A stretch of 64,000 nucleotides of DNA from Actinoplanes derwentensis (GTDB lineage Bacteria > Actinomycetota > Actinomycetes > Mycobacteriales > Micromonosporaceae). Within the stretch, counting starts at the first letter, position 1, and each line of letters begins with the position of its first letter. Where the stretch lies: positions 2,480,001 to 2,544,000 of the forward strand of contig NZ_LT629758.1 in the NCBI RefSeq assembly GCF_900104725.1, read 5' to 3'. The position numbers and the translations under genes were made by a program. Of this stretch, positions 18,022 through 35,408 are shown piece by piece. The notes beneath the pieces were generated by a model, which was given only the letters and a program-made list of their open reading frames with translations, did no database searches and was not told the origin of the DNA.

Positions 18022-19029
<1,008 letters not shown>

Positions 19030-19189: not shown

Positions 19190-20875
19190 TCAGCCCACGG
19201 TCCACAGTTGATTGGCCGCGCCGAGGCAGTCCCACAGGTGGATCTGCTGGCCGTCGGCCGGGCGGGCCTCCGAGACGTCCAGGCAGCGGCCGGACTGCGG
19301 GTTACGGACGGTCCGGCCGGCCTGAGCCACCCAGTTCTGCGCCCCGCTGCCGTTGCACGTCCACAGCTGCGCCTTCGTGCCGTTCACGGTCGCGCCACCG
19401 GCCGCGTCCAGGCACTTGTTCGACGCGGGGTTCCGCCACACCTGGCCGCTGACCTGCCAGTTCTGCGCCCCGGTTCCGTTGCAGGTCCACAGCTGGATCT
19501 TGGTGCCGTCGGCGGTTCCGGCCCCGCTCACGTCCAGGCACTTGCCGGCCAGCCCGACCACCGGGCCCGGACCGGCCGGTGGGGTGCCGAGCTCCTTGAT
19601 CCGCACGTTACGGAACGACACGTCGTCGCCGTCGCCGTGGTTCTGCAGGCCGACGTGACCGGCGAGATCACGTACCGGATCGGTGTTGGTGAAGTCGTTG
19701 ATCTTCACGCCGTTGAGCAGCACCTGCAGACGCTGGCCCTGAACCAGCAGCTCGTAGGTGTTCCACTCCCCCGGCGGATTCAGCGCCGCGTCCCGGGCCG
19801 CCGCGTTCGCGCCCTGGAAGCTGTAGACCGCGCCGGTGGTCCGGTCGGCGGCGTCGGTGGCGTCGATCTGGATCTCGTAACCGTTGTTCACCGCCGACCA
19901 CGGGTCACTCGACGGCGGGAAGCCGATGAACACCCCGGAGTTGTCGTCCCCGGCCATCCTCCAGTCCAGTTTGAGCGAGTAGTCGGTGAACGCCTTGCCG
20001 GAGTACCACAGCAGGCCGAGCCCACCGGTCGAGGTCAGAGTGGCGTCGCTGTTGGTGAAGGCGCCCGGCCCGGCCTGCTGCCAGCCGGTGGTCGAGCCGT
20101 CGTACAGCGGGGTGTAGCCGGTCTCCGGGCGGCAGTCGGCCCGCACCTGACCGGCTGTGTAACGGATGCCGCCGAGCAGGTGGGCACGGAAGGCGGCGTC
20201 GGCGTACGACTGCTGGGTGTGCCCGCCGCCGGTGTAGAACGACCGGCCCGCGTCCAGGGTCTTGCACCAGGCGTGCGGGTGATCGGCGCCCATCGTCCCA
20301 CCGGAGTACGACGTCTCGTCCAGGGTGGCCAGCACGTGGGCGGTGCTGCGGGCATTGGTGCGGTAGTCGTACCACTCGTCGGTGCGGTTCCAGATCTGCG
20401 GCAGATGCGCGGTGGCCGCGTGCGCCCGGTCCGCCACCTCCACCCGGGCCGGCTGGATCGCCGGGTGGGAGGCGAACCAGGCGCCGACCAGCTGACCGTA
20501 GAACGGCCAGTCGTATTCGGTGTCGGCGGCCGCGTGGATACCGGTGTAGCCGCCACCGGCGCGGATGTAGGACTCGAACGCGGTCTGCTGGACGTCGTTC
20601 AGCACGTCGCCGGTGGTGTTCAGGAAGACCACCGCCTCGTACTGGGCCAGGTTCGCGCTGGTGAACGCGGTGGCGTCCTCGGTGGCGGTGACGGTGAAGC
20701 CGTTCGCGGTGCCCAGCTCACGGATCGCCTGCACCCCGGTGCTGATCGAGTCGTGCCGGAAACCGGCGGTCTTGGAGAAGACCAGCACGTCGTACGGGGT
20801 GTCGGCGAGGGCCGGCGCGCCGCTCGCCAGGAGGGTCAGCGCGGCTGTCGCCGCACCGAGAAGAATTCTGCGCAC
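19190..20875 (-). CDS. Secreted ThuA-DUF1080-ricin B protein
   Basis: The protein has 561 residues. The GTG start at 20875 is supported by AAGGAG 9 bp upstream and opens a signal peptide ([24 protein letters not shown]). It has an uninterrupted ThuA domain (about 26-245; [29 protein letters not shown]), a DUF1080 domain (about 250-430; [43 protein letters not shown]) and a three-fold ricin-B/CBM13 lectin (about 437-561; [21 protein letters not shown] repeats). ThuA and DUF1080 families are linked to 3-keto-disaccharide breakdown; the lectin should bind galactose-type or xylan polymers. It is coupled to the 20895-23696 gene (19-bp gap). Confidence 0.88.
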
Positions 20876-20894: not shown

Positions 20895-23696
20895 TCAGGG
20901 AAGGTTCCAGAGTTGGTTGGCGGCGCCGTTGCAGTCCCACAGGTGAATCTGCTGGCCGTCGTCCGGTTTGACCTCGGAGACGTCCAGGCAGCGGCCGGAC
21001 TGCGGATTACGGACCGTCCGGTTGCTCTGAGCCGTCCAGTTCTGCGCGCCGCTGCCGTTACAGGTCCACAGCTGCGCCTTGGTCCCGTTGGCGGTGGCGC
21101 CACCGGCCGCGTCCAGGCACTTGTTCGACGCCGGGTTCCGCCACACCTGACCGGTGATCTGCCAGTTCTGGGCGGCGGTGCCGTTGCACGTCCACAGTTG
21201 GATCTTGGTGCCGTCGGCGGTTCCGGCCCCGCTCACGTCCAGGCACTTACCGGCCAGCCCGACCACCGGGCCGACGGTCCGGAAGGTGAACGCGTCCAGG
21301 TCGAACAGCGCCCCGGTCCCACCGGCGAACGTCAGGTAGAGCGTGGTGGTGCCGGCCGGCGGGTTGCTGATCACGCCGGTGACCTCGGTGAAGACGTCCC
21401 AGCCGCCGGTGACCGGCACGATCGCCGAACCGAGCACGGTGCCGGTGGCCGACCCGGCACGGACCTGCACGGTGCCGCCCGCTCCGGCCGACGAGGCCCG
21501 GACGGTGAACCCGGTGGTGTCACCCAGCCGGTACGGATCGAAGGAGATCCAGTCGCCGGCGTTGATGTCGCCGACGGTCCGGCCGCCCTCGGCGGTGGTC
21601 TTGGTGAACGTGTTGACCCCGGAACTGTTCTTGAAGTGCTCGGCCTGCCGGTGCCGCGGCTGCAGGACGTGCTGGGTGTGCGTGGTCAGACCACCGGCGT
21701 CGGTGTACTCGGCGTCGAACACGGCGAAGATGTTCGCGGCCGCGTCGTGCTCACCGTCGACCGGGATGCTCAGCGAGCCGGTGCAGCCGGTGGCCGAGGT
21801 GATCTGGTGTCCGTGCTGGTCATGGCCGAGCACGTAGGTCATCTTGACCTTGGTGCAGTCGATGGCCGGGTCCTCCGGATCGGTGACGGTCACCGCGAAC
21901 GGCACGGTGTCGCCGAAGGAGAACAGCCGGCCGTCGCCGGGCGTCGTGATGGTCACCGTAGGCGCGGTGTTACCGACGCCGATCTGCACACCAGCGGTGC
22001 CGGTCGCGCCTTGCGGGTCGGTCACGGTCAGCGTCACTTGATAAGAGCCATTGCTGGTGTACGTCTTGGAAGGGTTCGCCGCCGTGGAGGTGGTGCCGTC
22101 CCCGAAGTTCCACAGGTAGGTGAGCGTCCCGCCCTCGGGGTCGCTGGAGCCGGCCGACGAGAAGGTGACCGTCAACGGCGCCTGCCCGGTGACCTTGTCC
22201 GCGGTCGCGTTCGCCGTGGGACTGCGGTTACCGCCGCCGACGTGGTCGTAGCGGTACAGCGCGGAGTTCTCGTCCCCGTTGAAATATCCGGTGCCGTAGT
22301 CGAGCACATAGAGCGACCCGTCCGGCCCGAACGCCGAGTCCATCACCTGCTTGCCGTTCCACGGGAACGTGGTGATCTCACCGGGACTGCCGTCGGCGCC
22401 GACGTGGATCGGTTTGATCCAGCCGCGGCCGAGTTCACCGGCGAAGAAGTGGCCCTCGAACGACTGCGGGAACTTCGTCGCCGACGTGGACGCGGCGTCG
22501 TAGCGGTACACCGGCCCGGCCATCGGCGACTCCGAGCCGCCACCGAACTCCGGCGGGCTGCCCGCGTCACCGGCGTACCGGATCCAGGCCGGTCTCGCCG
22601 GTGGCAACGTGGCCTGGCCGGTGTTGCGGAACGAGTTGTTGACCGGGCCGCCCGCGCAGTTGTACTTCGGTCCGGCGGTTCCGGTGGCGAAGTTCCATTC
22701 GGCGTACGTCTCGGTCGCGGTGTTCGTGCCGGTGCAGTAGGGCCAGCCGAAGTTGCCGGGTGCGGTGATCCGGTTGAACTCGACCTGCCCGCTCGGACCA
22801 CGGCCGGTGGTGGTGCCGGAGTCGGGCCCGTAGTCGCCGACGTAGACCGCACCGGTCGCGCGGTCGACACTCATCCGGAACGGGTTGCGGAAGCCCATCG
22901 CGTAGATCTCCGGCCGGGTACTCGCGGTGCCGGGGGCGAAGAGATTTCCGGCTGGTACGGCGTACGACCCGTCGCTGTTGACCTTGATCCTGAGGATCTT
23001 GCCGCGCAGATCGTCGGTGTTGGCGCTGGTGCGCTGGGCGTCGAAGGCCGGGTTACGGTCGGCGCGTTCGTCCAGTGGGGCGAAACCGTCGGACTGGAAC
23101 GGGTTGCTGTCGTCGCCGGTGGACAGGTACAGGTTGCCGGCGGCGTCGAAGTCGATGTCGCCGCCGACGTGACAGCACAGGCCCCGGTCGGCGGGCACGT
23201 CCAGGATCCGGGTCTCGGCCGACAGCTTCCAGTCGGCGGTCAGGGTGAACCGGGCGAGCCGGTTGACCCCCTGCCAGAGCGACCAGTCACCGCCCGCGGC
23301 CGGGGCGTCGCCGGCCGGGGTGGACAGCGGCGGCGCGTAATAGAGGTAGATGTGCCGGTTGGTGGCGAAACCCGGGTCGACGCCAATGCCCTGCAGACCC
23401 TCCTCGTCGTGGGTGTAGACGGGCACGGTGCCGGCCACGGCGGTGGTGCCGGAACTGTCGGTCCGGCGCACGGTGCCGTTGCGGGCGGTGTGCAGCACCG
23501 AACGGTCCGGCAGCACGGCCAGGGTCATCGGCTCACCCACCTCGGGTTCACCCTTGGCCAGGGTGACCTGCTGGAAGTCGGCGGGATCGATCGGGTGGGC
23601 GGAGGCCGGAGCCGGGAGGGCGACGACGGCGGCCGCGACCGGGAGCAGGGCGGCGACGGCGATGGTCCGCCACCGGCACAGGGTGGAGTCGGGCAT
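20895..23696 (-). CDS. Secreted sugar dehydrogenase-PKD-CBM6-ricin B protein
   Basis: The protein has 933 residues. ATG 23696 gives a clean signal peptide (RTIAVAALLPVAAAVVALPAPASA). Domains: dehydrogenase propeller (about 35-480; EEGLQGIGVDPGF, CCHVGGDIDFDAAGNLYLST, AMGFRNPFRMSVD, AFGPDGSLYVLDYGTG), PKD (about 490-575), Ig-like domain with YVLGHDQHGHQI, CBM6-like domain (AEHFKNSSGV to FDLDAFTFRTV), and ricin-B lectin. The lectin is almost the same as in the downstream ThuA protein, so both enzymes probably dock on the same polymer. The first ~680 residues are parallel to the protein at 14867-16915, which suggests duplication. Confidence 0.88.
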   Translation of the reverse strand: MPDSTLCRWRTIAVAALLPVAAAVVALPAPASAHPIDPADFQQVTLAKGEPEVGEPMTLAVLPDRSVLHTARNGTVRRTDSSGTTAVAGTVPVYTHDEEGLQGIGVDPGFATNRHIYLYYAPPLSTPAGDAPAAGGDWSLWQGVNRLARFTLTADWKLSAETRILDVPADRGLCCHVGGDIDFDAAGNLYLSTGDDSNPFQSDGFAPLDERADRNPAFDAQRTSANTDDLRGKILRIKVNSDGSYAVPAGNLFAPGTASTRPEIYAMGFRNPFRMSVDRATGAVYVGDYGPDSGTTTGRGPSGQVEFNRITAPGNFGWPYCTGTNTATETYAEWNFATGTAGPKYNCAGGPVNNSFRNTGQATLPPARPAWIRYAGDAGSPPEFGGGSESPMAGPVYRYDAASTSATKFPQSFEGHFFAGELGRGWIKPIHVGADGSPGEITTFPWNGKQVMDSAFGPDGSLYVLDYGTGYFNGDENSALYRYDHVGGGNRSPTANATADKVTGQAPLTVTFSSAGSSDPEGGTLTYLWNFGDGTTSTAANPSKTYTSNGSYQVTLTVTDPQGATGTAGVQIGVGNTAPTVTITTPGDGRLFSFGDTVPFAVTVTDPEDPAIDCTKVKMTYVLGHDQHGHQITSATGCTGSLSIPVDGEHDAAANIFAVFDAEYTDAGGLTTHTQHVLQPRHRQAEHFKNSSGVNTFTKTTAEGGRTVGDINAGDWISFDPYRLGDTTGFTVRASSAGAGGTVQVRAGSATGTVLGSAIVPVTGGWDVFTEVTGVISNPPAGTTTLYLTFAGGTGALFDLDAFTFRTVGPVVGLAGKCLDVSGAGTADGTKIQLWTCNGTAAQNWQITGQVWRNPASNKCLDAAGGATANGTKAQLWTCNGSGAQNWTAQSNRTVRNPQSGRCLDVSEVKPDDGQQIHLWDCNGAANQLWNLP

Positions 23697-23846: not shown

Positions 23847-24899
23847 TCAGCTCTGCCGGGTGACGACCTCGTCGGCGAGCCGCCGCAGCGCGGTGGCCAC
23901 CTCGGCGGGCAGTGCGGCCCGGTTCAGGGCGGACAGGGCGGTGCTCAGGCGGGTCTCGATCAGGCGCTCGGTGGCCTCGCGCGCGCCGGTGTCGACGATG
24001 ATCCGGCGCAGTTCGGCCGCGCCGTGGTCGTCCAGTTCCGGGTCTCCGAACAGCTCCCGGATCCGGGTCAGCTGCGCTCGGTCGGCGCGGTCCCGGGCGT
24101 ACGCCACCATCGCCGTGCGTTTGCCCTCACGCAGGTCGTCCAGCACCGGTTTGCCGGTCACCGCCGGATCGCCGAACACCCCGAGCACGTCGTCCCGCAG
24201 TTGGAAGGCGTCGCCCAGCGGATCCCCGAACTGCACGAACGACGCCAGCAACGCATCACTCGCACCGGCCAGAGCCGCCCCGATCTGCAGCGGGCGGGTC
24301 ACCGTGTACCGCGCCGACTTCATCCGGATCACCGTCAGCGCACCGGCCACCGAGCCGTCACCGACCCCGGACACCAGGTCCAGGTATTGCCCGGCGATCA
24401 CCTCGGTCCGCATGCCCGCGAACACCGGATAACCGCGATGCACCTGCTCCCGGGTCAAGCCGCAGCCGTTGAACATCTCGTCCGCCCAGGCCGCGCACAG
24501 GTCCCCGCCGAGCAGGGCGGTGTTACGGCCGTAGCGGGCCGCGTCGCCGCGCCACGCCGACCGGGCGTGCCGGTCGGCGAAGAACTGGTGCACCGACAGT
24601 TCGCCGCGGCGCCGCACGCTGCCGTCCATGATGTCGTCGTGGATCAGCGCGAACGCGTGGAACAGCTCCAGCGACGCCGCGGCGGTCACGATGGCCTCGT
24701 CGTCCGGGCCGTCCGCGCCGCGCCAGCCCCAGTAGCAGAACGTCGGCCGTAACCGTTTGCCGCCGGCCAGCACGAACCGGTGCAGCGTGTTCAGCAGTCC
24801 GTGCGGGGCGCCGTCCGGCCAGCCCGGCCCCTGCCGGCTCAGGAACGCGGCCAGCCGGGCGTCGAACCGGGCCCGCAGGTCCACGGCCAGTTGGGTCAC
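23847..24899 (-). CDS. Polyprenyl diphosphate synthase (Ebo-type operon)
   Basis: This ~350-residue trans-isoprenyl diphosphate synthase has GGKRLRP, a first Asp-rich motif in LIHDDIMDGS and a second in FQLRDDVLGVFGD, all intact. The GTG start at 24899 overlaps the stop of the phosphodiesterase gene (GTGA). It condenses IPP with allylic diphosphates to a C15-C20 or longer chain; the chain length cannot be read reliably. As the last gene of the operon it is well placed to supply the UbiA-family prenyltransferase encoded in the same unit. Ebo clusters as usually described do not include this enzyme. Confidence 0.92.
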   Translation of the reverse strand: MTQLAVDLRARFDARLAAFLSRQGPGWPDGAPHGLLNTLHRFVLAGGKRLRPTFCYWGWRGADGPDDEAIVTAAASLELFHAFALIHDDIMDGSVRRRGELSVHQFFADRHARSAWRGDAARYGRNTALLGGDLCAAWADEMFNGCGLTREQVHRGYPVFAGMRTEVIAGQYLDLVSGVGDGSVAGALTVIRMKSARYTVTRPLQIGAALAGASDALLASFVQFGDPLGDAFQLRDDVLGVFGDPAVTGKPVLDDLREGKRTAMVAYARDRADRAQLTRIRELFGDPELDDHGAAELRRIIVDTGAREATERLIETRLSTALSALNRAALPAEVATALRRLADEVVTRQS

Positions 24900-26263
24900 G
24901 ACGTACTCCGGTACAGGCCCGCCAGTTCCAGCAGCAGCGCTTTCACGTCGGTCGCGGCGATCCGCGCCGGGCCGCCGGCCCGTGAACACAGCAGCATCGG
25001 GGAGTCGGCCTCGTCGTCCGGCAGCCGGCCGTGCGAGCCGCGGACCGCGCGGGCGCCCGCGTCCAGTCCGACCACACTCATCAGGTAGCGCATGCCCAGC
25101 TTCTTGCGGGCCAGCGCCACCGCGGCCCACCGTTTCGCCGCCGCCGGCGCGGCCGGATCGAAGAACAGTTCGGCCGGGTCGTAGCCGGGTTTGCGGTGGA
25201 TGTCGACCAGGCGGGCGAAGTCCGGGGCGCGGTCGTCGTCGAGCCAGTAGTAGTAGGTGAACCAGGCGTCCGGCTCGGCGACCAGCACCAGGTCCCCGGC
25301 GCGCGGATGATCGAGCCCGTGCCGCACCTCGGCCACCCCGGGCAGCCCTTGCAGGATCTTCTCGACCCGGGGCAGGTCGGCCGGATCACGGACGTAGACG
25401 TGCGCGATCTGATGGTCGGCCACCGCGAACGCGCGGGACGTCCACGGGTCCAGGTATTCCATGCCCTGCTGGGTGTGCACGCGCAGCAGGCCCTCGGCGC
25501 GCAGTGCCCGGTTCACGTCGACCGGCTGCCGGACGTCGGTGATGCCGTACTCGGACAGCACCACCACCGTCGCGTCCCGTTCGGTGGCGGCCCGCAGCAG
25601 CGGTTCCAGGACGATGTCCAGTTCGGCGGCGGCCGCTGCCGCCCGCGGATCCGACGGGCCGTAGCGCTGCAGGTCGTAGTCCAGGTGCGGGACGTAGACC
25701 AGGGTCAGATCGGGGTCGTGCCGCGCCATCACCCGCTGGGCGGCCGCACAGATCCACTGCGACGACGCCAGACCGGCACCCGGGCCCCAGTACGAGAACA
25801 GCGGGAACGTGCCGAGCGCGGCGGTGAGGTCGTCGTGCAGTTCCGGTGGATCGGTGTAACAGTCCGGGTCCTTGCGGCCGTCGGCGTGGTAGACCGGCCG
25901 GGGTGTGACCGTCCAGTCGACGTCGGCGCCCATCGCGTACCACCAGCAGATGTTCGCCACCGTGTAACCGGGCTTGTGCCTACGGGCGGCCTGCCACACC
26001 TTCTCGCCACCGACCAGACCGTGATGCTGACGCCAGAGCAGCACCTCGCCGAGGTCGCGGAAGTACCAGCCGTTGCCGACCACACCGTGCCCGGCCGGGG
26101 TCTCGCCGGTCAGCAGGGTCGCCTGCACCGAGCAGGTGACCGCCGGCAGCACCGGGTCCAGCCGGGCCGAGAACCCGGCGTCGGCGACCGCCCGCAGCCG
26201 CGGCATGTGCTCCAGCAGCCGCGGAGTCAGGCCGACCACGTCCAGCACGACCAGCTTGTTCAC
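24896..26263 (-). CDS. Type I phosphodiesterase/alkaline phosphatase-superfamily protein (EboF-like)
   Basis: This ~455-residue protein of the PF01663 nucleotide pyrophosphatase/phosphodiesterase family has an N-terminal metal site (VVLDVVGLTPRLLEHMPRL) and a Thr-type nucleophile region (LPAVTCSVQATLLTGETPAGHG). It also has WYFRDLGEV, VPHLDYDLQRYGP, LSEYGITDV and FAVADHQIAHVYV, which complete the two-metal site. The GTG start overlaps the EboE stop by 4 bp. An alkaline-phosphatase-superfamily member is a standard part of Ebo clusters. It is predicted to hydrolyse a phosphate ester or diphosphate intermediate (inference). No export signal is visible. Confidence 0.88.
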   Translation of the reverse strand: MNKLVVLDVVGLTPRLLEHMPRLRAVADAGFSARLDPVLPAVTCSVQATLLTGETPAGHGVVGNGWYFRDLGEVLLWRQHHGLVGGEKVWQAARRHKPGYTVANICWWYAMGADVDWTVTPRPVYHADGRKDPDCYTDPPELHDDLTAALGTFPLFSYWGPGAGLASSQWICAAAQRVMARHDPDLTLVYVPHLDYDLQRYGPSDPRAAAAAAELDIVLEPLLRAATERDATVVVLSEYGITDVRQPVDVNRALRAEGLLRVHTQQGMEYLDPWTSRAFAVADHQIAHVYVRDPADLPRVEKILQGLPGVAEVRHGLDHPRAGDLVLVAEPDAWFTYYYWLDDDRAPDFARLVDIHRKPGYDPAELFFDPAAPAAAKRWAAVALARKKLGMRYLMSVVGLDAGARAVRGSHGRLPDDEADSPMLLCSRAGGPARIAATDVKALLLELAGLYRSTS

Positions 26264-27396
26264 TCTGCCACCTGCTCGTGGAGAAGATCGCGGGCGTACG
26301 CCAGTTCCCCGGCGATGCCGTCGGCCAGTTCCGCCGGGCCGGCCGGGCGCCGGTCGACGGGCAGCACGTCCCAGGTGTAGGTCTCCACGTCCAGGTGGTC
26401 GCACCACGGTTCGTCGGCGGCCATCAGGTGGTGCAGCGCGGTCTCCAGGACTTTCGTGGTGCTCGCCAGCGGTGGTGCGGGGGCGACGTGCAGCGGCACG
26501 TGGAAATGCACCCGCCACGGACCGGGCAGGCCGGCGGCCAGCGCCTCGTCCAGGTCGTCGGTCGCGGGGCCGTGCGCCGAGCGGGTCTGATGCAGGAACC
26601 GGGGTTCGGCGTACTGCTGCAGCACATCTCGGGCCGCGACCGGGTCGGCGACCTCCAGAGCGGCACTGACCTGCACCTTCACCACCGGCAGTCCCTGTTG
26701 GGACAGGCGGTGCAGGGCTTCGGCGGGTTCCTCCCAAGCGCACGCCAGGTGGGCCAGGTCGAGGCAGATGCCGAGACGGCCGGTGTCGACCGCTGCCAGC
26801 AGTTCGGTGGCCTGGGTGGTGTTCTCGACGACGCAGCCGGGTTCCGGTTCGAAGCCCACCCGTACCGGACGGCCGGTCTGGTCCTCGATCTCGGCCAGTC
26901 CGGCGGCGAGCCGATCCAGGTTGCGGGCGGCGATGTCGCGCTGGTCGGGACGCCACGGATCACGCCAGGCCAGTGGCAGGGTCGAGATCGAACCGCGGGC
27001 GGCGTCGTCGGGCAGCAGATCGGTCAGCACCCGGGCCAGGTCCAGCGTGTAACGCAGCCGGTCCTCGGTGGTCCAGTCCGGGCGGTAGACGGCATGTTTG
27101 ACCACCGGAGCCTGGAACGCGGCGTACGGAAAACCGTTGAGGGTCACCACTTCCAGGCCGCGGGTGTCCAGTTCGGTGCGCAGCCGTCGCCGGGCCCGCG
27201 GGTCGGCGGCCAGTTCGGCGGCGGCCGGGGCGGCCAGCCACAAGCCGAGGCCGAGTACGTCGGTGTCGAGCCGTTTGCGGACCGGCACCGCGAACGCGTC
27301 GAGTTGCGCCACGATGCCGGGCAGGTCCTCGGCCGGATGCACGTTGGTGCAGTAACTCAGGTGCAGCGTCCGTCCGCTGCGATGCCGCAAACGCAT
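26260..27396 (-). CDS. eboE: Metabolite traffic protein EboE-like TIM barrel
   Basis: The protein has 378 residues. It begins MRLRHRSGRTLHLSYCTNVHPAEDLPG; the LSYCTNVHPGE-type opening is characteristic of EboE. Other conserved points are TLNGFPYAAFQ, VGFEPEPGCVVENTTQ, CLDLAHLACAWE, VKVQVSAAL, HFHVPLHV and HLDVETYTWDVLP. EboE is a xylose-isomerase-like TIM barrel needed in cyanobacteria for export of a scytonemin precursor; its reaction is unknown. The ATG shares one base with the stop of the TatD-like gene (TGATG). It shares the GFEPEPG core with the other TIM barrel of the operon (28784-29713), so the two are probably paralogues. Confidence 0.9.
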   Translation of the reverse strand: MRLRHRSGRTLHLSYCTNVHPAEDLPGIVAQLDAFAVPVRKRLDTDVLGLGLWLAAPAAAELAADPRARRRLRTELDTRGLEVVTLNGFPYAAFQAPVVKHAVYRPDWTTEDRLRYTLDLARVLTDLLPDDAARGSISTLPLAWRDPWRPDQRDIAARNLDRLAAGLAEIEDQTGRPVRVGFEPEPGCVVENTTQATELLAAVDTGRLGICLDLAHLACAWEEPAEALHRLSQQGLPVVKVQVSAALEVADPVAARDVLQQYAEPRFLHQTRSAHGPATDDLDEALAAGLPGPWRVHFHVPLHVAPAPPLASTTKVLETALHHLMAADEPWCDHLDVETYTWDVLPVDRRPAGPAELADGIAGELAYARDLLHEQVAE

Positions 27397-28247
27397 CAGC
27401 TACCACCCCGCAGGATGGAACTGCCCTCGAAGGTGGCCTCTTTTTCGAGAATGTCGGTCAGGTCCAGGCGTCCGGACTGGCCGTAGAACTCCACCGGATT
27501 ACGCCACAGCACCCGGTCCACGTCGTCGTCGGTGAACCCGGCGGCCAGCATCGCCTCCCCGGTGCGCAACGTCAGCAGCGGGTCCGATCGGCCCCAGTCG
27601 GCGGCCGAATTGACCAGGATCCGGGCCGTGCCGTGGTCACGCAGGATCTGGACCATCCGGTCCGGTGACATCTTGGTGTCCGGGTAGATGGAGAAACCCA
27701 TCCAGCAGCCCGCGTCGTGCACCGCCCCGATCGTGACCTCGTTGAGGTGGTCCACCACCACGTGATCCATCGCGATGCCGGACTCCTTGACCACCGCGAG
27801 GGTACGGTCCACACCGCGCGCCTTGTCCCGATGCGGCGTGTGCACCAGCGCGGGCAGCTCGTACTCGACAGCCATCGCGAGCTGCGCGGCGAAGACCTCG
27901 TCCTCCTCCGGTGTCATCGCGTCGTAGCCGACCTCACCGACCGCCACCACCGAGTCCTTGTCCAGGTAGCGGGGCACCAGGGCGAGAGCTTCCCGGCAGC
28001 GCGGGTCGTTCGCCTCCTTCGGGTTCAGCGCGATGGTGGCGTGGTGCCGGATCCCGAACTGGGCGGCCCGGAACGGTTCCCAGCCCACGAGCGCGTCGAA
28101 GTAGTCGGCGAACGAGCCGGCGCTGGTGCGGGGCTGGCCCAGCCAGAACGCCGGTTCGACGACCGCGCGGACCCCGGCGGCGGCCATCCGCTGGTAGTCG
28201 TCGGTGGTCCGGGACGTCATGTGGATGTGCGGGTCGAAGATGCGCAT
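27396..28247 (-). CDS. TatD-like metal-dependent hydrolase (EboB-type)
   Basis: This ~283-residue amidohydrolase-superfamily protein has FDPHIHM (HxH), VGEVGYDAMT (bridging Glu), LVHTPHRDK and VVDHLNEVT (His ligands) and NSAADWGRSD (Asp). All the usual TatD ligands appear to be present. A TatD-like hydrolase is one of the six canonical Ebo proteins. It starts on the last base of the EboA stop (TGATG) and ends on the first base of the EboE start, so translation is coupled on both sides. The substrate is unknown; a DNase role is unlikely in this context. Confidence 0.88.
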   Translation of the reverse strand: MRIFDPHIHMTSRTTDDYQRMAAAGVRAVVEPAFWLGQPRTSAGSFADYFDALVGWEPFRAAQFGIRHHATIALNPKEANDPRCREALALVPRYLDKDSVVAVGEVGYDAMTPEEDEVFAAQLAMAVEYELPALVHTPHRDKARGVDRTLAVVKESGIAMDHVVVDHLNEVTIGAVHDAGCWMGFSIYPDTKMSPDRMVQILRDHGTARILVNSAADWGRSDPLLTLRTGEAMLAAGFTDDDVDRVLWRNPVEFYGQSGRLDLTDILEKEATFEGSSILRGGS

Positions 28248-28771
28248 CAAACCTCCAGCAGACTTCGTGCGTCCTCCGGGAAAGAGCGGCCGGCGGCGGC
28301 CCGTTCGTCGCGCAGCCCGGCGGTCATCGCCGCGAGTTCGGCGTCGGCCCGGTCGGTCAAGCGATCCACCACCGCCAGGGGTATGCCCATGAACACGCAT
28401 TTCAGGACCGACTGCCGCCACGCGGGCTGATCCAGGTGCCGGGCGTACGGGCCGAGAGCCGCGGCCACCAGCCGGGTGTCGTTGGTACGGATCGCGTCGT
28501 GCAGCAGCGGCACGGCCTCCGCGCCGATCGGTAGTTGCGGTAGCGCTTTGAGGACGGCCAGTTTTTCGTTCGCGTCGCCGTGCCGGTACAGGTCGTCGAC
28601 ATATCGGGGCAGGTCGGCGGCGGGCAGGGCGAGCAGCAGACGGGCTCGGGCGGCCTCCTTCTCCTCCCGGGCACAGTGCCGTCCGGCCGCGGCGAACAGC
28701 CGGGTGATGCTCGGTGGGTCGGCGGCCACCCGGGCCACACCGGCTTCGAGCCAAGCGTTGTGCGGGTCCAT
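28247..28771 (-). CDS. eboA: EboA domain protein
   Basis: The small helical protein (174 residues) has the EboA pattern: WLEAGVARVAADPPSITRLFAAAGRHCAR near the N-terminus, then HEAT-like helices (EKLAVLKALPQL, LHDAIRTNDTRLVAAALGPYA) and the signature KCVFMGIPLAVVDRLTDRADAELAAM. Its biochemical role is unknown; it is the marker gene of Ebo clusters. ATG 28771 is preferred (GGGGAG 6 bp upstream) over the GTG one codon before it. It follows the TIM-barrel gene by 12 bp, the only real gap in the operon. Confidence 0.88.
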   Translation of the reverse strand: MDPHNAWLEAGVARVAADPPSITRLFAAAGRHCAREEKEAARARLLLALPAADLPRYVDDLYRHGDANEKLAVLKALPQLPIGAEAVPLLHDAIRTNDTRLVAAALGPYARHLDQPAWRQSVLKCVFMGIPLAVVDRLTDRADAELAAMTAGLRDERAAAGRSFPEDARSLLEV

Positions 28772-28783
28772 CACGTTCTCCCC

Positions 28784-29713
28784 TCAGGCGGCTTTGAGGA
28801 ATCGCAGGGAGTCGGCCGCCACCGTCGGGGCGGCGTGCGAGTGGCGGGGTAGTTCGACGGCTACCAGGCCTCGGTAACCAGCCCGCTCCAGCGCGGCCAG
28901 CACGGGTGGGAAGTCGATCTCGCCGGTGCCGAACTCCAAGTGCTCGTGGACGCCGCGGCGCATGTCGTCGATCTGCACGTTGACCAGGTGATCGGCCACG
29001 GCGGTCACGCAGTCGGGCACCGGCAGCGACTCCAGGCAGCGGCAATGGCCGATGTCGAGAGTGATGCCGAAACCGGCTGGTTCGCCGAGGGCCGCGTGCA
29101 GGCGGTGCCAGTCGGCTATGTCCTGGACCAGCATGCCCGGTTCCGGTTCGAAACCCAGTGGCATCGCGTGCTGCTGGGCGGTGGACAGGACTTCGGCGCA
29201 GCCGTTCACCAGCCGCTGCCAGGCCGTGGTGTCATCGACGTCGGCGGGTTTCACACCGGCCCAGAACGAGACGGCCTCCGCGCCCAGGTCGGCGCCGATC
29301 GTCACGGCTCGCTGCAGGAAGTCGATGCGGCGGGCACGTTCGTCGTGCAGCAGGGTCGGCGCGTGTTTGTGCCACCGGTCGAGCAGGAAGCGGGCGCCGG
29401 TTTCGATCACCACCGACATCCCGAGGCGGGCCAGACGTTCGGCCAGCGCGTCGACTCGGCGGGAGACATTTTTGGCGTACGGGTTGAGGTGCCCGTGGTC
29501 CAAGGTGAGCGCTACGCCGTCGTAGCCGAGGTCGGCCAGTACTGCCAGCGCGTCGGTCAGGCGGTGGTTGCTGAAACCGTTGGTGCCGTACCCGAATCGC
29601 AGTCCGCCTGGGGTTTCGCCCTTGCAGCGGCCGCCGTTCGTGCTTTTGCTCTTATCGCGGCCACCGTTCGCGCTTTCACCCGCGTCGCGGCCGCCGTTCG
29701 TGCTTTTGCTCAT
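28784..29713 (-). CDS. TIM-barrel sugar isomerase with repetitive N-terminus (Ebo operon)
   Basis: This ~309-residue xylose-isomerase-like protein has LRFGYGTNGFSNHRL, LGYDGVALTLDHGH, MPLGFEPEPGMLV, GITLDIGHCRCLES, VNVQIDDMRRGVHEHLEFG and VAVELPRHSH, with metal ligands as in the family. The first ~36 residues are a 10-residue tandem repeat (MSKSTNGGRD / AGESANGGRD / KSKSTNGGRC) encoded by 30-bp repeats and look unstructured. ATG 29713 overlaps the UbiA stop (ATGA). The fold motifs begin only after the repeat, so an ATG-coupled start makes the repeat part of the protein. It is probably an isomerase or epimerase of the cyclitol or sugar intermediate. Confidence 0.85.
   Translation of the reverse strand: MSKSTNGGRDAGESANGGRDKSKSTNGGRCKGETPGGLRFGYGTNGFSNHRLTDALAVLADLGYDGVALTLDHGHLNPYAKNVSRRVDALAERLARLGMSVVIETGARFLLDRWHKHAPTLLHDERARRIDFLQRAVTIGADLGAEAVSFWAGVKPADVDDTTAWQRLVNGCAEVLSTAQQHAMPLGFEPEPGMLVQDIADWHRLHAALGEPAGFGITLDIGHCRCLESLPVPDCVTAVADHLVNVQIDDMRRGVHEHLEFGTGEIDFPPVLAALERAGYRGLVAVELPRHSHAAPTVAADSLRFLKAA
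29609..29713. repeat. 30-bp in-frame minisatellite at the isomerase N-terminus
   Basis: About three degenerate 30-bp units encode [K/M]SKSTNGGRD-type decapeptides at the start of the 28784-29713 protein. Confidence 0.7.
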
Positions 29714-30705
29714 GTCGCGGCCACCTTTCGGGCCAGGCGGGCCGCTGCGGGGGCGAGGACCGCGGTGGCCACGCCTGCCGCTCCGGCACCGGACCTCGCG
29801 GCCAGCGCGCCCTGCAACACCGGAAGGGTGGTGATACCGGCGGTGACAGCGTCCTGGACCCGGGCCGCGGTGGGGTCCTCGGCCGCGCGACGTTGCGCCG
29901 CCCCGTAGCGGGCCAGATACCAGGTGGCCAGAGCTGCCGCGCCGAGCATCCGGCGACCGGACCGGGCCCCGGCTGCGGCGACGGCCACCGCCGCGGTGGC
30001 GGCCAGCGTGCGCCGGGGCAGCGACGGTTCCGCGCCCTCCACCTCGCGCTGGGACAAAACGGTCACCGTGTAGGTGTGCGCGGCCACCACCAGCGCGGAC
30101 GGCACCGCGGGCCGCCAGCGTCCGCCGGTGCCGAGCAGCACGTTCAGGCCCCGGCAGGTGGCCATCACCGCCGGGCCCGCGACGGTGTTCTTGGCGCCCA
30201 GGTCGTACAACCAGATCGCCCCGGCCAGCGACACCGCCACCGGGATCTGCCGTCGCCCACCGGCCGTGACCGCGATGGCCAGCCCGGCCACGGTCAGCCC
30301 GGCGGCGATCCCGCCAGCGGTGGCCGGTGACACCCGGCCGGACGGGATCGGCCGGTGCGGACGCTCGACCGCGTCGACATGCCGGTCCGCGAGGTCGTTG
30401 GCGGCCATCCCGGCCCAGTACAGGCACACCGACGCGGCAGCCGTCGCCAGCGTGCGCGGCCTGAGCACCCCGGCGGCGGCAGCACCGGCCACGACGTCAC
30501 CCGGCACCGACAGCGCGGCCGGCGCCCGGGTGAGTTCGACCAGGTCACGCCACCCGGTCCGATGCCGAGGTTCGCGGCGGCCGGTCACATCCGCAGTTCG
30601 GTGACCGGGTTCGCTTCGGTCGGTCACGTCAGCAGTTCGGTGACCGGGTTCGCTTCGGTCGGTCACATCACCAGTTCGGTGATCGGGTTCGCGGAGGCTG
30701 GTCAT
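29710..30705 (-). CDS. UbiA-family prenyltransferase (EboC-like, SCO3242 type)
   Basis: This ~331-residue integral membrane protein has about eight hydrophobic segments after a hydrophilic N-terminus. The first Asp-rich motif is ANDLADRHVDAVERPHRPIPSG, with the N/DxxDxxxD pattern; the second is degenerate (YDLGAKNT). Residues 6-50 are a 13-residue tandem repeat (EPGHRTADVTDRS) not expected in the family. The start overlaps the stop of the inositol-phosphate-synthase-like gene (ATGA). UbiA enzymes transfer a prenyl chain to an acceptor at the membrane; a UbiA member is canonical for Ebo. Its donor could come from the diphosphate synthase at the end of the operon. Confidence 0.9.
   Translation of the reverse strand: MTSLREPDHRTGDVTDRSEPGHRTADVTDRSEPGHRTADVTGRREPRHRTGWRDLVELTRAPAALSVPGDVVAGAAAAGVLRPRTLATAAASVCLYWAGMAANDLADRHVDAVERPHRPIPSGRVSPATAGGIAAGLTVAGLAIAVTAGGRRQIPVAVSLAGAIWLYDLGAKNTVAGPAVMATCRGLNVLLGTGGRWRPAVPSALVVAAHTYTVTVLSQREVEGAEPSLPRRTLAATAAVAVAAAGARSGRRMLGAAALATWYLARYGAAQRRAAEDPTAARVQDAVTAGITTLPVLQGALAARSGAGAAGVATAVLAPAAARLARKVAAT
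30556..30690. repeat. 39-bp in-frame minisatellite at the UbiA N-terminus
   Basis: Tandem 39-bp units (core GGTCACRTCASCAGTTCGGT on the plus strand), about 3.5 copies, encode EP(G/D)HRT(A/G)DVTDRS. Confidence 0.85.
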
Positions 30706-31850
30706 GCCTGGGGTCCGGCGCCGAGGGCGGCGGCGAACGCGGTCAGGGTCTGCCACTGGTCGGCCAGGCCGTGCGGGCCGTCGCCGAGCGGGTCCTTGAA
30801 GAAGAACGCCAGTTCGGTCAGCGGGCCGGTGTGGCCGGCGGCGTGGGCGGCGCCGGTGAGGCGGGCCAGGTCGAGGATCAGGGGTGCGGCCAGGGCCGAG
30901 TCGCAGCCGTGCCAGGTGAATTCCAGGCGCATGCCGGTGCCGAGGAAGCCGTTGAAGCTGATCAGGTCCCAGGCGGTCTTGAAGTCGCCGAGGTCTTCGA
31001 CGTAGTCGATGCGGACCACACCTTGCGGCTGGTAGCCGAGGGTCTCCGCGAGGACGCGCTGTTTGCTGGCGGACTTGGCGGCGTTGGCACCCGGGTCGGT
31101 GAGGGTGGCCCCGTCGCCGCCGCCGAGCAGGTTCATTCCCGACCAGGTACGAACCTGCAGGTGCCGGTGGGCGAACATCGGCGCCAGCACCGATTTGAGC
31201 AGCGTCTCACCGGTCTTGCCGTCGTGTCCGGCGTGCGGCAGTCCCTGCCGGCGGGCCAGTTCGGCCAGGGCGGGCAGGCGGGCACCGGCCGACGGGGTGA
31301 AGTCGACGAACGGGCAACCGGCGGTGAACGCGGCGTACGCGTACAGGGCGCTCGGTGGCAGGATAGTCGCGCCGGTGCGCAGCGCGTCCTCGAGAGCGTC
31401 GATGGTGTCGTGGGCGGGGTGTGGTTCCGGGGCGGGTTCGGTGGACGACACGTTGATCACCACGACCCGGTCCAGGGCGTGCCGCTGCCGGAAGTCGACC
31501 AGGTCGGCGACCAGCCGGGCGGCGGTGATGGCTTGATCGGGGCCGTCCGGTACCGGCCGGATCTCGGCGTCGGCGGCGGCCAGGTCGTCGTGCAGTGCCC
31601 GGACCAGGGCGGCCGGTACCACCCCGGCGTCGCCGAGTTGTTCGGCCTTCTTGGTCAGCGGTATCGGTGACGGGTCGTGGCCGCCGAACACCAGGTCACC
31701 GAATCCGGCGAGCCCGGACGAGCGGAACTCGGGTAGTTCGGTGACACAACCGGTGGGCGGCGCCAGTCCGGCACGCAGCGCGAATGCTCCGACGATGCTG
31801 GTCACGGCGACGCTGCCGCGCCCACCGACCAGCCAGACTCCCAAGGACAT
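30702..31850 (-). CDS. Inositol-3-phosphate synthase-like sugar-phosphate cyclase
   Basis: This ~382-residue protein of the myo-inositol-phosphate synthase family has an N-terminal Rossmann motif (WLVGGRGSVAVTSIVG), INVSSTEP, GHDGKTGETLLKS, VRTWSGMNLLGGGDGATLTD and, in the catalytic part, SASKQRVL and EDLGDFKTAWDLISFNGFLG. ATG 31850 has GGAGG 6 bp upstream. The family oxidises, cyclises and reduces glucose 6-phosphate with NAD. It is the first gene of the Ebo-like operon and takes the position where classical Ebo clusters have EboD, a dehydroquinate-synthase-type cyclase. It could make a different cyclitol phosphate; the sequence does not decide. Confidence 0.88.
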   Translation of the reverse strand: MSLGVWLVGGRGSVAVTSIVGAFALRAGLAPPTGCVTELPEFRSSGLAGFGDLVFGGHDPSPIPLTKKAEQLGDAGVVPAALVRALHDDLAAADAEIRPVPDGPDQAITAARLVADLVDFRQRHALDRVVVINVSSTEPAPEPHPAHDTIDALEDALRTGATILPPSALYAYAAFTAGCPFVDFTPSAGARLPALAELARRQGLPHAGHDGKTGETLLKSVLAPMFAHRHLQVRTWSGMNLLGGGDGATLTDPGANAAKSASKQRVLAETLGYQPQGVVRIDYVEDLGDFKTAWDLISFNGFLGTGMRLEFTWHGCDSALAAPLILDLARLTGAAHAAGHTGPLTELAFFFKDPLGDGPHGLADQWQTLTAFAAALGAGPQA

Positions 31851-31977: not shown

Positions 31978-33177
31978 TCAGGCGGCGATCTCGGTCAGGG
32001 CCGGTTCCACCTCCGACCACGAACCCAGTGCGGCGGAACGTTCGACGGCGTCCAGGACGAGCTGGACCTGCAGGGCGTCGGTGAACGACGGCGCGATCGG
32101 AGCCCCGGTGCCGATCGCTTCGAGCAGGTCGCGGGCCTGGTGGGTGAAGGAGTGTTCGTAACCGATGAGGTGACCGGGCGGCCACCAGGCGGCGACGTAC
32201 GGATGGTCGGGCTCGGTGACCAGGATCCGGCTGAAGCCCTGCTCGTCGGAGGGCAGTGCGGCGTCGTAGAACTCCAGCTCGTTCATCCGCTCGAAGTCGA
32301 AGACCACCGACCCCTGTGACCCGTTGATCTCCACCCGCAGGCCGTTCTTGCGGCCGGTGGCGAACCGGGTGGCCTCGTAGGTGGCGATCGCCCCGCCATC
32401 GAGCCGGGCCACGAACAGCGCGGCGTCGTCGACGGTGACATCACCCGTGCCGGTCACCGTGTCACCGGCGCTGAGTCCGCTCGAATCGCCCGGCAACGGC
32501 CGCTGTTTGACGAACGTCTCGGTCAGCGCGCTCACCCCGGAGATCCGCTGACCGGTGACGTACTGGGTGAGGTCGATGATGTGCGCACCGATGTCACCCA
32601 GCGCGCCGGAGCCCGCCTTGTCCTTCTGCAGCCGCCAGACCAGCGGGAACTGCGGGTCGGTGATCCAGTCCTGCAGGTACACCGCGCGTACGTGCCGGAT
32701 CTCGCCGAGCCTGCCGTCGGCGACCAGCCGCCGCATCAGGGCGACGGCCGGCACCCGCCGGTAGTTGAACCCGCACATCGACCGGACTCCGCCGGCTTGC
32801 GCCCGGACCGCGGCGGCCGCCATCGCACGTGCCTCGTCGATGGTGTTCGCGAGGGGTTTCTCGCACAGGACGTGCTTGCCGGCGGCCAGGGCGGCGATCG
32901 CGATCTCGGCATGGCTGTCGCCGGGGGTGCAGACGTCGATCAGGTCGATGTCGTCCCGGGTGATCAGCGACCGCCAGTCGGTGGTGTGTTCCGCCCAGCC
33001 GAGCTGGGCCGCCGCCGCGGCGACCTTGCCCGGATCCCGGCCGCTGACGGCCGTCATCCGGGCCCGCAGCGGCAGGTCGAAGACCCGGTTCACGGTGCGC
33101 CACGCCTGTGAGTGCGCGGTTCCCATGAACGCGTAGCCGACCATGCCGATGCGCAGGTCCGTGGTCTGCGTGGACAA
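31978..33177 (-). CDS. Gfo/Idh/MocA family oxidoreductase
   Basis: The protein has 399 residues. It has an N-terminal NAD(P)-binding fold (RIGMVGYAFMGTAHSQAW), the family motif EKPLANT, and the catalytic GDIGAHIIDL with His. It oxidises or reduces sugar or inositol hydroxyls. TTG 33177 is the start (GGGAG 7 bp upstream), 21 bp after the binding-protein stop, so it is the last gene of the ROK/ABC operon. This pairing predicts that the imported sugar (inositol, a pentose or a 3-keto-sugar) is first handled by this dehydrogenase. Confidence 0.9.
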   Translation of the reverse strand: MSTQTTDLRIGMVGYAFMGTAHSQAWRTVNRVFDLPLRARMTAVSGRDPGKVAAAAAQLGWAEHTTDWRSLITRDDIDLIDVCTPGDSHAEIAIAALAAGKHVLCEKPLANTIDEARAMAAAAVRAQAGGVRSMCGFNYRRVPAVALMRRLVADGRLGEIRHVRAVYLQDWITDPQFPLVWRLQKDKAGSGALGDIGAHIIDLTQYVTGQRISGVSALTETFVKQRPLPGDSSGLSAGDTVTGTGDVTVDDAALFVARLDGGAIATYEATRFATGRKNGLRVEINGSQGSVVFDFERMNELEFYDAALPSDEQGFSRILVTEPDHPYVAAWWPPGHLIGYEHSFTHQARDLLEAIGTGAPIAPSFTDALQVQLVLDAVERSAALGSWSEVEPALTEIAA

Positions 33178-33198: not shown

Positions 33199-34260
33199 TC
33201 AGAAACCGAGCTTGAGGTACGCGCTCGCGTTCTCCTTGGTGATGGTCTCCGAGGCCAGGACGATCTCCTTGGGGACCTGCAGCTCGACCAGGTCGGACAG
33301 GCCCTTGCCCTGGCCGATCAGCCGGGCCAGCGAGATCGCCGAGGAGGCCATCGACGGGCTGTAGGTGACGGTCGCCTTGAGTGGGGTCTTGTCGGCCTGG
33401 ATGTCCTCCATCGCCTTCTTGGAGCCGGCGCCGCCGACCATGATGAATTCGCTGCGACCGGCCTGGTTGATCGCGGCGAGCACGCCGACCCCCTGGTCGT
33501 CGTCGTGGTTCCAGAGCGCGTCCATCTTGGGTACGGCCTGCAGCAGCTGGCTGGCGGCCCGCTGGCCGGTGTCGACGGTGAACTCGGCCGGGACCCGCCG
33601 TTGCACGGTGAAGCCGGCCGCGGCGAGGGTGTCGGAGAAGCCCTTGGACCGGTTCTGGGTCAGTTCCAGGGAGTCGATGCCGGGGATCTCGCCGATCACC
33701 GGGTTGCTGATTCCCTTGGCTTTCATCTGGGCGACGATGTAGTCGGCGGCGGCCACGCCCATGCCGTAGTTGTCGCCCAGGATCTGGGTGCGGTAGGCGC
33801 GGGCGTCCGGGAAGGCCCGGTCCAGGTTGATCACCGGGATACCGGCGGTCATCGCCTGCAGGCCGAACGAGTTCAGTTCCTTGCCGTCGTGCGGCAGCAG
33901 CACGATGACGTTGGGCTTCTGCCCGAGCAGGGTGGACAGGGCGGCCCGCTGGGTGGCCGCGTCGGAGCCGGACTCGACGGTCTTCAGTTCCACGTCGGAG
34001 TAGGCGGTGGCCTGCGCCTTCGCGTTGGTGATGATGGCGCCGAGCCAGCCGTGGTCGGCGGCCGGTGCGGAGAAACCGATGACGACCTTGGTGCCGGGGG
34101 CCGCGTTGCCGGCGCTGGCGCCGCCTTCGTTCGGCTTGATCTGGGCGTCGTTGGAGTTCGTCTCGTTGCTGGTGCACGCGGTGAGGAGGGTTCCCGCGCC
34201 GAGTGCGGCACCGCCGAGCAGCAGGCGGCGTCGCGACAGGTCGCGACTGCTCTGTGTCAT
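33199..34260 (-). CDS. Sugar ABC transporter binding lipoprotein (RbsB type)
   Basis: The protein has 353 residues. A lipoprotein signal has lipobox LLTAC after DLSRRRLLLGGAALGAG. A periplasmic-binding-protein type I fold follows (VVIGFSAPAADHGWLGAI, VIVLLPHDGKEL, GIPVINLDRAF, LWNHDDDQGVGVLAAI). It delivers sugar to the CUT2 permease encoded just upstream. SD GGGAG precedes the ATG. There are 95 bp between it and the permease gene, more than elsewhere in the operon, which leaves room for a processing site or hairpin that raises binding-protein expression (inference). Confidence 0.9.
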   Translation of the reverse strand: MTQSSRDLSRRRLLLGGAALGAGTLLTACTSNETNSNDAQIKPNEGGASAGNAAPGTKVVIGFSAPAADHGWLGAIITNAKAQATAYSDVELKTVESGSDAATQRAALSTLLGQKPNVIVLLPHDGKELNSFGLQAMTAGIPVINLDRAFPDARAYRTQILGDNYGMGVAAADYIVAQMKAKGISNPVIGEIPGIDSLELTQNRSKGFSDTLAAAGFTVQRRVPAEFTVDTGQRAASQLLQAVPKMDALWNHDDDQGVGVLAAINQAGRSEFIMVGGAGSKKAMEDIQADKTPLKATVTYSPSMASSAISLARLIGQGKGLSDLVELQVPKEIVLASETITKENASAYLKLGF

Positions 34261-34355
34261 GGTATCTCCCGATTAATCGGTATGGATGGAACGGAAGAAG
34301 GGTGCACGGAACCCGGCAGCCGTCACACGGACGGTCGCCTGACGAGAAGCCGGGA

Positions 34356-35408
34356 CTAGGTTCTGTTGCGGCTCAGGAACTGGGTGACGGCTTTGAACCG
34401 GAACTGCTGAACCAGGACGGCGGCGATGATGATGCCGCCCTTGACCATGTTCTGGGCCTCGGTGGACAGCCCGTTGATGGCGAACAGGTTGGTGATGGTG
34501 GCGAAGATGATCACGCCGAGCAGCGAGCCGACGATGGTGCCGCGGCCGCCGCTGAGCAGGGTGCCGCCGATGATCGCGGCGGCGATGGCGTCCAGTTCGT
34601 AGAGGTTGGCCATGGCGGCCTGCGCGGAGGTGGCCTGGGCGGTCAGCATGATCGCGGCGATGCCACAGCAGAGCCCGCTCAACCCGTACAACAGCATGGT
34701 GTGTCGTTTGACGTTGATCCCGGCCAGACGTGCGGCCTCGGGGTTGCCGCCGACCGCGATCGTGCGCCGGCCGAACGTGGTGCGGTTGAGCAGCACCCAG
34801 CCGACCGCGGCGACCACCGCCAGGACGTAGACCAGCAGCGGGATGCCGAACAGTTTCCCGGCCGCGATGCCGTTGATGAAGGCGCTCTCCGAGATCTGCG
34901 TCTGCTTCCCGGAGATCGACGCGGCCAGACCGCGGGCGGCCACCAGCATCGCGAGGGTGGCGATGAAGGGCACCAGCTTGCCGTACGAGATGAGCAGCCC
35001 GTTCACCAGCCCGACAGCCAGGCCCACCACGATCGCGGTGAAGATCATGCCGCCGGGGCCGTAACTCTGGGTGGCGACCGTGGTGGCCCACACCCCGGCC
35101 AGCGCGACGATGGCGCCGACCGACAGATCGATGCCGCCGCCGATGATCACGAAGGTCATGCCGACCGTGACCACCCCGATCACCGAGGCGAGCTGCAGGA
35201 TCGACAGGACGTTGTTCCAGACCCAGGCCGAGTCGCTGTAGAGCTGCGGCTGGGTGACCGCACCGATCACGATCAGCGCGACCAGCACACCGACCAGGAC
35301 CAGGTTACGGATGGTGTTCTCGCTGTTCTCGCCGCCCCACGGGATCCGGCGGGACCGTTCGGTCCCGGACTTCGGATGGTCGGCGACGACCGGTTCGCTG
35401 AGGGTCAT
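34356..35408 (-). CDS. Sugar ABC transporter permease (RbsC type)
   Basis: The membrane protein has 350 residues and 8-10 hydrophobic segments of the ribose/xylose permease family ([62 protein letters not shown]). The GIDLSVG signature is intact. Its ATG overlaps the ATPase stop by 4 bp. Confidence 0.92.

Follow-up and report, generated by a model that had tools for sequence, protein, structure and literature searches.

The window analysed here, 64,000 nucleotides of the Actinoplanes derwentensis chromosome (NZ_LT629758.1, positions 2,480,001 to 2,544,000), carries on its minus strand an eight-gene ebo operon (31850-23847) that begins with a sugar-phosphate cyclase of the myo-inositol phosphate synthase (MIPS) family in the position of EboD. 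The cyclase is followed by a UbiA-superfamily prenyltransferase, a xylose-isomerase-like TIM barrel, an EboA-domain protein, a TatD-like hydrolase (EboB), EboE, a type I phosphodiesterase/nucleotide pyrophosphatase (EboF) and a polyprenyl diphosphate synthase (PPS). These identities, and the overlap of neighbouring genes by 1-4 bp with a single 12-bp gap, had been proposed in an earlier reading of the DNA (the original prediction) and were borne out by family-model matches and by the gene starts and coordinates (Table 1). The nearest named relatives of the host are A. couchii and A. utahensis.

Three sets of loci were compared. The near set consists of the best 80 of 577 EboE loci from named genomes. 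The wider set comprises 72 loci from a phylum sample (197 genomes, EboE) and a class sample (246 actinomycete genomes, EboA domain), and the control set contains 40 other 19-kb regions of the same genomes, hand-picked at round coordinates and mostly on the same contigs. The association of the ebo genes is not due to chance: relatives of the first seven proteins occur in 67-72 of the 72 wider loci but in 0/40 controls, with the counts for EboA and EboE holding partly by construction because the loci were located via one or the other. The EboA domain was found in 65 of the 246 class genomes and EboE in 11 of the 197 genomes phylum-wide; thus, the operon is not special to this Actinoplanes strain. 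A second EboE-like gene lies outside the window in the same genome (6131640-6132287; 92 bits, below the cut-off of 250).

The MIPS-type cyclase and the absence of EboD

Both domains of the MIPS family exceed their cut-offs in the cyclase, and its closest solved structure is the Archaeoglobus fulgidus mIPS (1u1i, 248 bits). Eight positions, D225, N255, D261, K274, K278, K306, D332 and K367 in A. fulgidus numbering, are invariant in an alignment of 152 MIPS rows that spans other MIPS clades and canonical Ino1. We take these positions to be catalytic. Three of them (N255, K278 and K367) are the residues altered in the mutant chains 3qw2, 3qvw and 3qvx. The active site on which the predicted exchange of cyclases depends is therefore intact. 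Family and catalytic residues are shared with the A. fulgidus enzyme; the difference is that the Actinoplanes protein is the second MIPS of its genome and belongs to an ebo operon. Assignment to the mycothiol-type Ino1 was rejected (TIGR03450, 38 bits against a cut-off of 638). The genome has its own canonical Ino1 at 7555370 (TIGR03450, 671 bits), so the operon MIPS need not be a general inositol source.

In the host genome the sole match to PF01761 lies far from the operon and is presumably AroB; we therefore consider EboD absent. EboD queries likewise had no match in 154 ebo stretches from Actinobacteria, among them two Streptomyces plasmids. Nine non-actinobacterial plasmid loci were hand-chosen among the records listed, with 9 and 11 further records beyond those listed. 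Eight of them, from Azospirillum, Deinococcus, Ketogulonicigenium, Roseivivax, Salipiger, Mycetohabitans, Aureibacter and Gloeothece, carry EboD without any MIPS match, a small sample of EboD-type clusters restricted to plasmids. The ninth, from a Gemmatimonadota plasmid (Gemmatirosa), has MIPS and no EboD. EboD and MIPS thus co-occurred in none of the 163 loci (154 actinobacterial, 9 others). Together with family membership and intact residues, this upholds the original view that the place expected for EboD is taken by a MIPS-family cyclase. Annotated genes for a ferritin-like protein and a large hypothetical protein adjoin EboD-type ebo genes in three phyla (L205, L206, L207).

Among the 246 actinomycete genomes, a PF07994-type MIPS was present in 65/65 genomes with EboA and in 1/181 without, the former becoming at most 64/65 because the only PF07994 match of one genome (G217) falls in another MIPS clade. 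The gene lies inside the ebo locus in 61 of these 65 genomes; in G249 and G375 it is on a contig apart from ebo and was not placed on the tree. Of the near loci, 69/80 contain MIPS, and the remaining 11 start inside the operon, at most 350 bp from the locus edge. The wider loci gave 68/72 at an E-value of 1e-3 and 67/72 at 1e-10; the loci L141 and L152 are truncated, MIPS is a fragment in L167, and it is missing from L098 and L169. On the MIPS tree the actinobacterial ebo proteins form a single clade (support 97/98, 53 rows). A PF07994 match alone was rejected as an ebo marker, since a second MIPS clade exists (L210, L211, L212, L269, L270). In Roseomonas and Hymenobacter plasmids this second clade adjoins genes for YcaO, Gfo/Idh/MocA and TIM-barrel proteins.

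The Gemmatirosa locus bears on the history of the exchange. In a midpoint-rooted tree of EboB, EboE and EboF, in which the Gemmatirosa and Deinococcus rows have long branches, Gemmatirosa pairs with the EboD-type Deinococcus (100/100) within a larger group of EboD-type rows plus Gemmatirosa (97.4/87). The cyclase type thus changed at least twice on this tree, because a MIPS-type locus pairs with an EboD-type one and the Gemmatirosa MIPS falls outside the actinobacterial clade. This second change supports the earlier proposal that the same kind of step is carried out by another fold. Haloarchaeal plasmids of Halobaculum, Halocatena and Natronococcus encode MIPS, phosphodiesterase, TatD, UbiA and two TIM barrels (four of five haloarchaeal records were fetched, three of them with ebo genes). 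Neither EboA nor EboD is annotated in the three operons, in which no EboD search was run, and the MIPS of Halomarina BND7 (L267) has no ebo neighbours. In two of the three haloarchaeal loci (L265, L266, L268), MIPS and phosphodiesterase are divergent from the other ebo genes.

Companion enzymes and prenyl supply

The TIM barrel between UbiA and EboA resembles EboE (E 1e-6), so that the operon encodes two proteins of this kind. The best fold matches of its AlphaFold2 model (AF2; predicted local distance difference test score, pLDDT, 85.5) include ketose 3-epimerases, a 2-hydroxy-3-keto-glucal hydratase and a 3-keto-glucoside 4-epimerase, and are too general to name the reaction. An EboE-like TIM barrel stands alongside MIPS in 67/72 wider loci and in Gemmatirosa. 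It has no match in the eight EboD-type loci, of which Ketogulonicigenium has a different TIM-barrel gene beside ebo. Because the TIM barrel accompanies MIPS and is unmatched in EboD-type loci, we infer that the two proteins may jointly replace EboD.

The EboA-domain protein passes the domain model NF035938; with the longer NF035937 it scores 67 bits, below the cut-off of 320. Its predicted structure is all-helical (pLDDT 96), and a fold search returned 438 PDB matches, none at E <= 0.001. The TatD proteins of seven EboD-type clusters share 50-55% identity with that of the operon, and the Deinococcus protein shares 38%. The phosphodiesterase shares 43-56% identity with its counterpart in seven EboD-type loci; no counterpart was found in the Gloeothece stretch.

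The prenyltransferase passes NF045897, whereas the EboC model NF035940 gives 135 bits against a cut-off of 250. Its NDxxDxxxD positions are kept in 135/135 rows covering them. The NCBI family NF045897 bears the name of SCO3242 of Streptomyces coelicolor. In the CDA cluster of that organism, SCO3242 is annotated as a putative transferase and SCO3243 as a myo-inositol phosphate synthase (PMC3610822); the passages of that account on the two genes do not call them ebo.

PPS retains the aspartates of DDIMD and DDVLG throughout 60 relatives. The original prediction drew on a prenyl donor enzyme within the operon. One is present here, and prenyl supply genes recur near ebo: PPS was found in 54/80 near loci, 7/72 wider loci and 0/40 controls, and isopentenyl diphosphate isomerase (Idi) in 5/72 wider loci and 0/40 controls. 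As a general part of the operon, however, PPS was rejected; the difference between near and wider loci marks it as mostly a feature of the host's family. Its gene precedes the operon in some loci and follows it in others, and this variable side suggests that PPS may have been recruited more than once. In vitro, the UbiA encoded in a Maribacter ebo cluster transferred farnesyl groups to quinoline acids (PMC9235831). By analogy, the acceptor of the Actinoplanes enzyme may not necessarily be a bare cyclitol.

Glycoside-oxidation genes around the operon

The operon is embedded in genes for the uptake and oxidation of sugars (Table 1). A gene for a multicopper-oxidase-like protein also lies downstream, as does one for a 1260-aa protein (9779-13561) that combines ThuA, GSDH, PKD, F5/8 and 3-keto-disaccharide hydrolase domains.

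Table 1. Genes of the ebo operon and of its surroundings (positions in the window)
Feature	Position	Strand	Details
MIPS-family sugar-phosphate cyclase, EboD position	30702-31850	-	382 aa; PF07994 165 bits (cut-off 25), PF01658 104 bits (cut-off 27)
UbiA-superfamily prenyltransferase, SCO3242 family, EboC counterpart	29710-30705	-	NF045897 347 bits (cut-off 260); 4-bp overlap with MIPS
Second xylose-isomerase-like TIM barrel, EboE-like	28784-29713	-	PF01261 123.5 bits; 4-bp overlap with UbiA
EboA-domain protein, 174 aa	28247-28771	-	NF035938 152 bits (cut-off 50); 12-bp gap after TIM barrel if ATG is the start
TatD-like hydrolase (EboB)	27396-28247	-	PF01026 44 bits; 1-bp overlap with EboA
EboE	26260-27396	-	NF035939 422 bits (cut-off 250); 1-bp overlap with TatD
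Type I phosphodiesterase/nucleotide pyrophosphatase (EboF)	24896-26263	-	PF01663 223 bits; 4-bp overlap with EboE
Polyprenyl diphosphate synthase (PPS)	23847-24899	-	PF00348 153 bits; 4-bp overlap with phosphodiesterase
Gfo/Idh/MocA dehydrogenase, levoglucosan-dehydrogenase-like, directly upstream	31978-33177	-	PF01408; NF052479 364 bits (below cut-off 650)
Sugar ATP-binding cassette (ABC) importer (binding protein, permease, ATPase), upstream	33199-37087	-	PF13407, PF02653, PF00005
ROK-family regulator, upstream	37084-38283	-	PF00480 187 bits
GSDH beta-propeller with PKD, CBM6 and ricin-lectin, directly downstream	20895-23696	-	PF07995 125 bits
ThuA with 3-keto-disaccharide hydrolase and lectin, downstream	19190-20875	-	PF06283, PF06439
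TIM340, TIM-barrel isomerase-like, downstream	18022-19044	-	PF01261 151 bits
TIM255, TIM-barrel isomerase-like, downstream	16917-17684	-	PF01261 72 bits
Second GSDH beta-propeller, 682 aa, with PKD; query of the genome test	14867-16915	-	PF07995 104 bits

Most of these neighbours recur. GSDH proteins were found near ebo in 46/72 loci versus 3/40 controls with one query and in 44/72 versus 3/40 with the other, and ThuA/3-keto-disaccharide hydrolase proteins in 35/72 versus 2/40; lectin or PKD domains in several of the neighbour queries may add matches in ebo loci and controls alike. The two isomerase-like proteins TIM340 and TIM255 occur in 39/72 and 37/72 loci, the Gfo/Idh/MocA dehydrogenase in 19/72, the ROK regulator in 14/72, and the importer's binding protein and permease in 9/72 each, all against 0/40 controls. 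Its ATPase is not enriched (19/72 versus 9/40). The order of these neighbours differs between families, so they were not inherited together as a single block. The sugar cluster of G349 includes, apart from ebo, a MIPS with 58% identity to that of the operon (L272).

Similar neighbours appear beyond the Actinobacteria. Proteins with PF06439, a cytochrome c and DUF7133/GSDH proteins are encoded near the Gemmatirosa ebo genes. Two of the three haloarchaeal operons adjoin a sugar dehydrogenase dependent on pyrroloquinoline quinone (PQQ), or ThuA plus an ABC importer, and the GSDH protein near that of Natronococcus also bears a plastocyanin-type domain. A DUF7133 protein and a cytochrome c are also encoded at the EboD-type locus of Ketogulonicigenium, and a PQQ dehydrogenase at that of Salipiger. 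ThuA, PF06439 and Gfo/Idh/MocA proteins are used in 3-keto-glycoside pathways; here the same enzyme families go together with an ebo operon and with GSDH beta-propellers. In two Streptomyces-type loci (L154, L209), ebo lies near genes for a phosphopantetheinyl transferase, a non-ribosomal peptide synthetase or an ABC transporter, with no GSDH seen, and a gene for a Tat-signal protein precedes the operon (read from the sequence in L154).

The tie to GSDH holds genome by genome. In a search that scored at most four first-look candidates per genome (E <= 1e-40), the GSDH protein at 14867-16915 had a match in 61 of the 65 genomes with EboA and in 2 of the 181 without. TIM340 from the same cluster, at a stricter threshold (E <= 1e-60), was found in 58/65 and 36/181. 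In an alignment of 98 GSDH domains, at least 95% retain Cys175-Cys176-His177 and Arg271-Asn272. The neighbouring GSDH protein matches PF07995 and keeps H177, R271 and N272, His and Arg-Asn positions of the kind that bind PQQ in relatives. In methanol dehydrogenase, a vicinal disulphide sits on PQQ.

PqqC has no match in the host genome and exceeded its cut-off in only 6/246 genomes, among them 5 of the 63 with GSDH. Thus, most cells with the supposed PQQ enzymes have ebo but lack PqqC. Many Gram-negative bacteria that lack PQQ synthesis take the compound up from outside (PMC12124388), so this mismatch is suggestive only.

A proposed pathway and its alternatives

For EboD-type ebo genes, an isoprenoid-cyclitol product was proposed in 2016 (PMC5133447). 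That paper notes a fusion of EboA with a xylose-isomerase-like protein in Actinobacteria, and the word inositol is nowhere in its main text. A cofactor was among the possibilities raised by Klicki et al., who preferred a role in transport (PMC6282210). With the ebo genes of eustigmatophyte plastids, Bacteroidetes and cyanobacteria, as described in these two papers, the Actinoplanes operon has the EboA, EboB (TatD), UbiA, EboE and EboF families in common. It differs from these classical clusters in having MIPS instead of EboD, a member of the dehydroquinate synthase superfamily, usually an additional TIM barrel, a UbiA of the SCO3242 family and the surroundings of a glycoside-oxidation cluster. 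Searches of titles and abstracts in the open-access literature, which covers few subscription papers and no preprints, found no paper on the MIPS-type ebo operon.

Judging from gene content and conservation, we give an about even chance to the idea that the MIPS-type Ebo pathway makes a prenylated compound derived from inositol, for use in sugar oxidation outside the cytoplasm. The dedicated MIPS paralogue would form the ring, an inositol phosphate or inosose phosphate, from a sugar phosphate in place of EboD, a role suggested because family and active site are those of a MIPS. The TIM barrel and EboE would then adjust or reshape the cyclitol, and UbiA would attach a prenyl chain, supplied here by the operon's own PPS. 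TatD and the phosphodiesterase could remove or trim phosphate or other groups. The prenylated product, membrane-bound or exported, would be used by secreted sugar-oxidising enzymes, above all the adjacent GSDH beta-propellers.

Several observations weigh against this proposal. One ebo operon (L169 in G217, whose sole PF07994 match, L210, belongs to the other clade) and one of the two operons of G123 (L098) lack MIPS, and the TIM barrel is unmatched in 5/72 loci (L143, L148, L152, L169, L193; one truncated). Idi is found in 0/80 near loci, and PPS is rare outside the host's own family (5 of 72 wider loci). In 26/72 ebo loci the stretch examined contains no GSDH or ThuA, no GSDH or ThuA is annotated near the Halobaculum operon, and the stretches of six of the eight EboD-type loci have no such dehydrogenase annotated. 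Four EboA genomes (G143, G201, G304, G330) have no match to the GSDH at 14867-16915; conversely, G341 and G384 have GSDH, and EboA and EboE are both absent. PqqC, though rare, is commoner with EboA (5/65) than without (1/181). Moreover, neither the genomes nor the loci are independent (a single genus accounts for 17 of the 65 EboA genomes), and the counts are uncorrected for kinship, so that p-values come out too strong.

The two operons of G123 lie approx. 200 kb apart. As read from the sequence, a FAD-oxidoreductase-like gene precedes the one without MIPS, and an inositol-monophosphatase-like gene lies further up.

The kinship of the genomes leaves some room for hitch-hiking, in which shared ecology, ancestry or regulation in large-genome soil actinomycetes would link ebo and glycoside-oxidation clusters. 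TIM340, which occurs without ebo in a fifth of the EboA-negative genomes (36/181), behaves as expected under such linkage. GSDH, unlike TIM340, is nearly absent from these genomes, and similar neighbours accompany two of three haloarchaeal operons and the Gemmatirosa locus. We therefore regard hitch-hiking as unlikely.

A comparably low probability is assigned to an export carrier, i.e. a prenylated cyclitol lipid that moves metabolites across the membrane and, in Actinobacteria, a compound used with the secreted enzymes. The scytonemin cluster, which concerns another metabolite and is EboD-type, resembles the Actinoplanes locus in combining ebo genes with exported proteins, in its case the Scy proteins (ScyDEF; PMC6282210). 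In Nostoc, the scytonemin monomer piles up in the cytoplasm of all studied ebo deletion mutants, and in the scyE mutant also in the periplasm, and cytoplasmic retention favours transport. The same study, as far as its account of the monomer goes, found no lipid-conjugated form (PMC6282210), and the actinobacterial neighbourhood resembles sugar import and oxidation rather than secondary-metabolite export. In one Streptomyces plasmid, the gene before MIPS encodes a ScyD/ScyE-family protein.

It is improbable that the operon MIPS only supplies myo-inositol for phospholipids, mycothiol or catabolism outside the Ebo pathway: the protein is a complete MIPS and its relative in G349 does reside in a sugar cluster apart from ebo, but a canonical Ino1 is encoded elsewhere, the gene overlaps that of UbiA, it resides within the ebo locus in nearly all EboA genomes, and EboD is missing where MIPS is present.

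The proposed prenylated inositol-derived compound could be given a more specific function. The Ebo product, prenylated and derived from a ring, might carry electrons or act as a redox cofactor for extracytoplasmic beta-propeller oxidoreductases, namely GSDH in Actinobacteria and haloarchaea and ScyE-type proteins in cyanobacteria, with MIPS and EboD as interchangeable entries to one compound. Where a genome has no PQQ synthesis, many of its enzymes with a PQQ annotation would then use the Ebo product instead. We consider this extension rather doubtful.

In summary, the MIPS-type ebo operon is real, conserved and more widespread than first noted, and its tie to secreted GSDH proteins is newly seen. 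In the ebo cluster, which was described in 2016-2018, the cyclase is here exchanged for an unrelated fold, in a variant that extends from actinomycetes to plasmids of haloarchaea and of one member of the Gemmatimonadota. Among culturable bacteria, Streptomyces and Actinoplanes, this variant is tied genome by genome to one secreted enzyme family, which turns a vague guess about secondary metabolites into a testable partner relation. At the same time, doubt falls on the assignment of a large number of actinobacterial GSDH proteins as PQQ enzymes.

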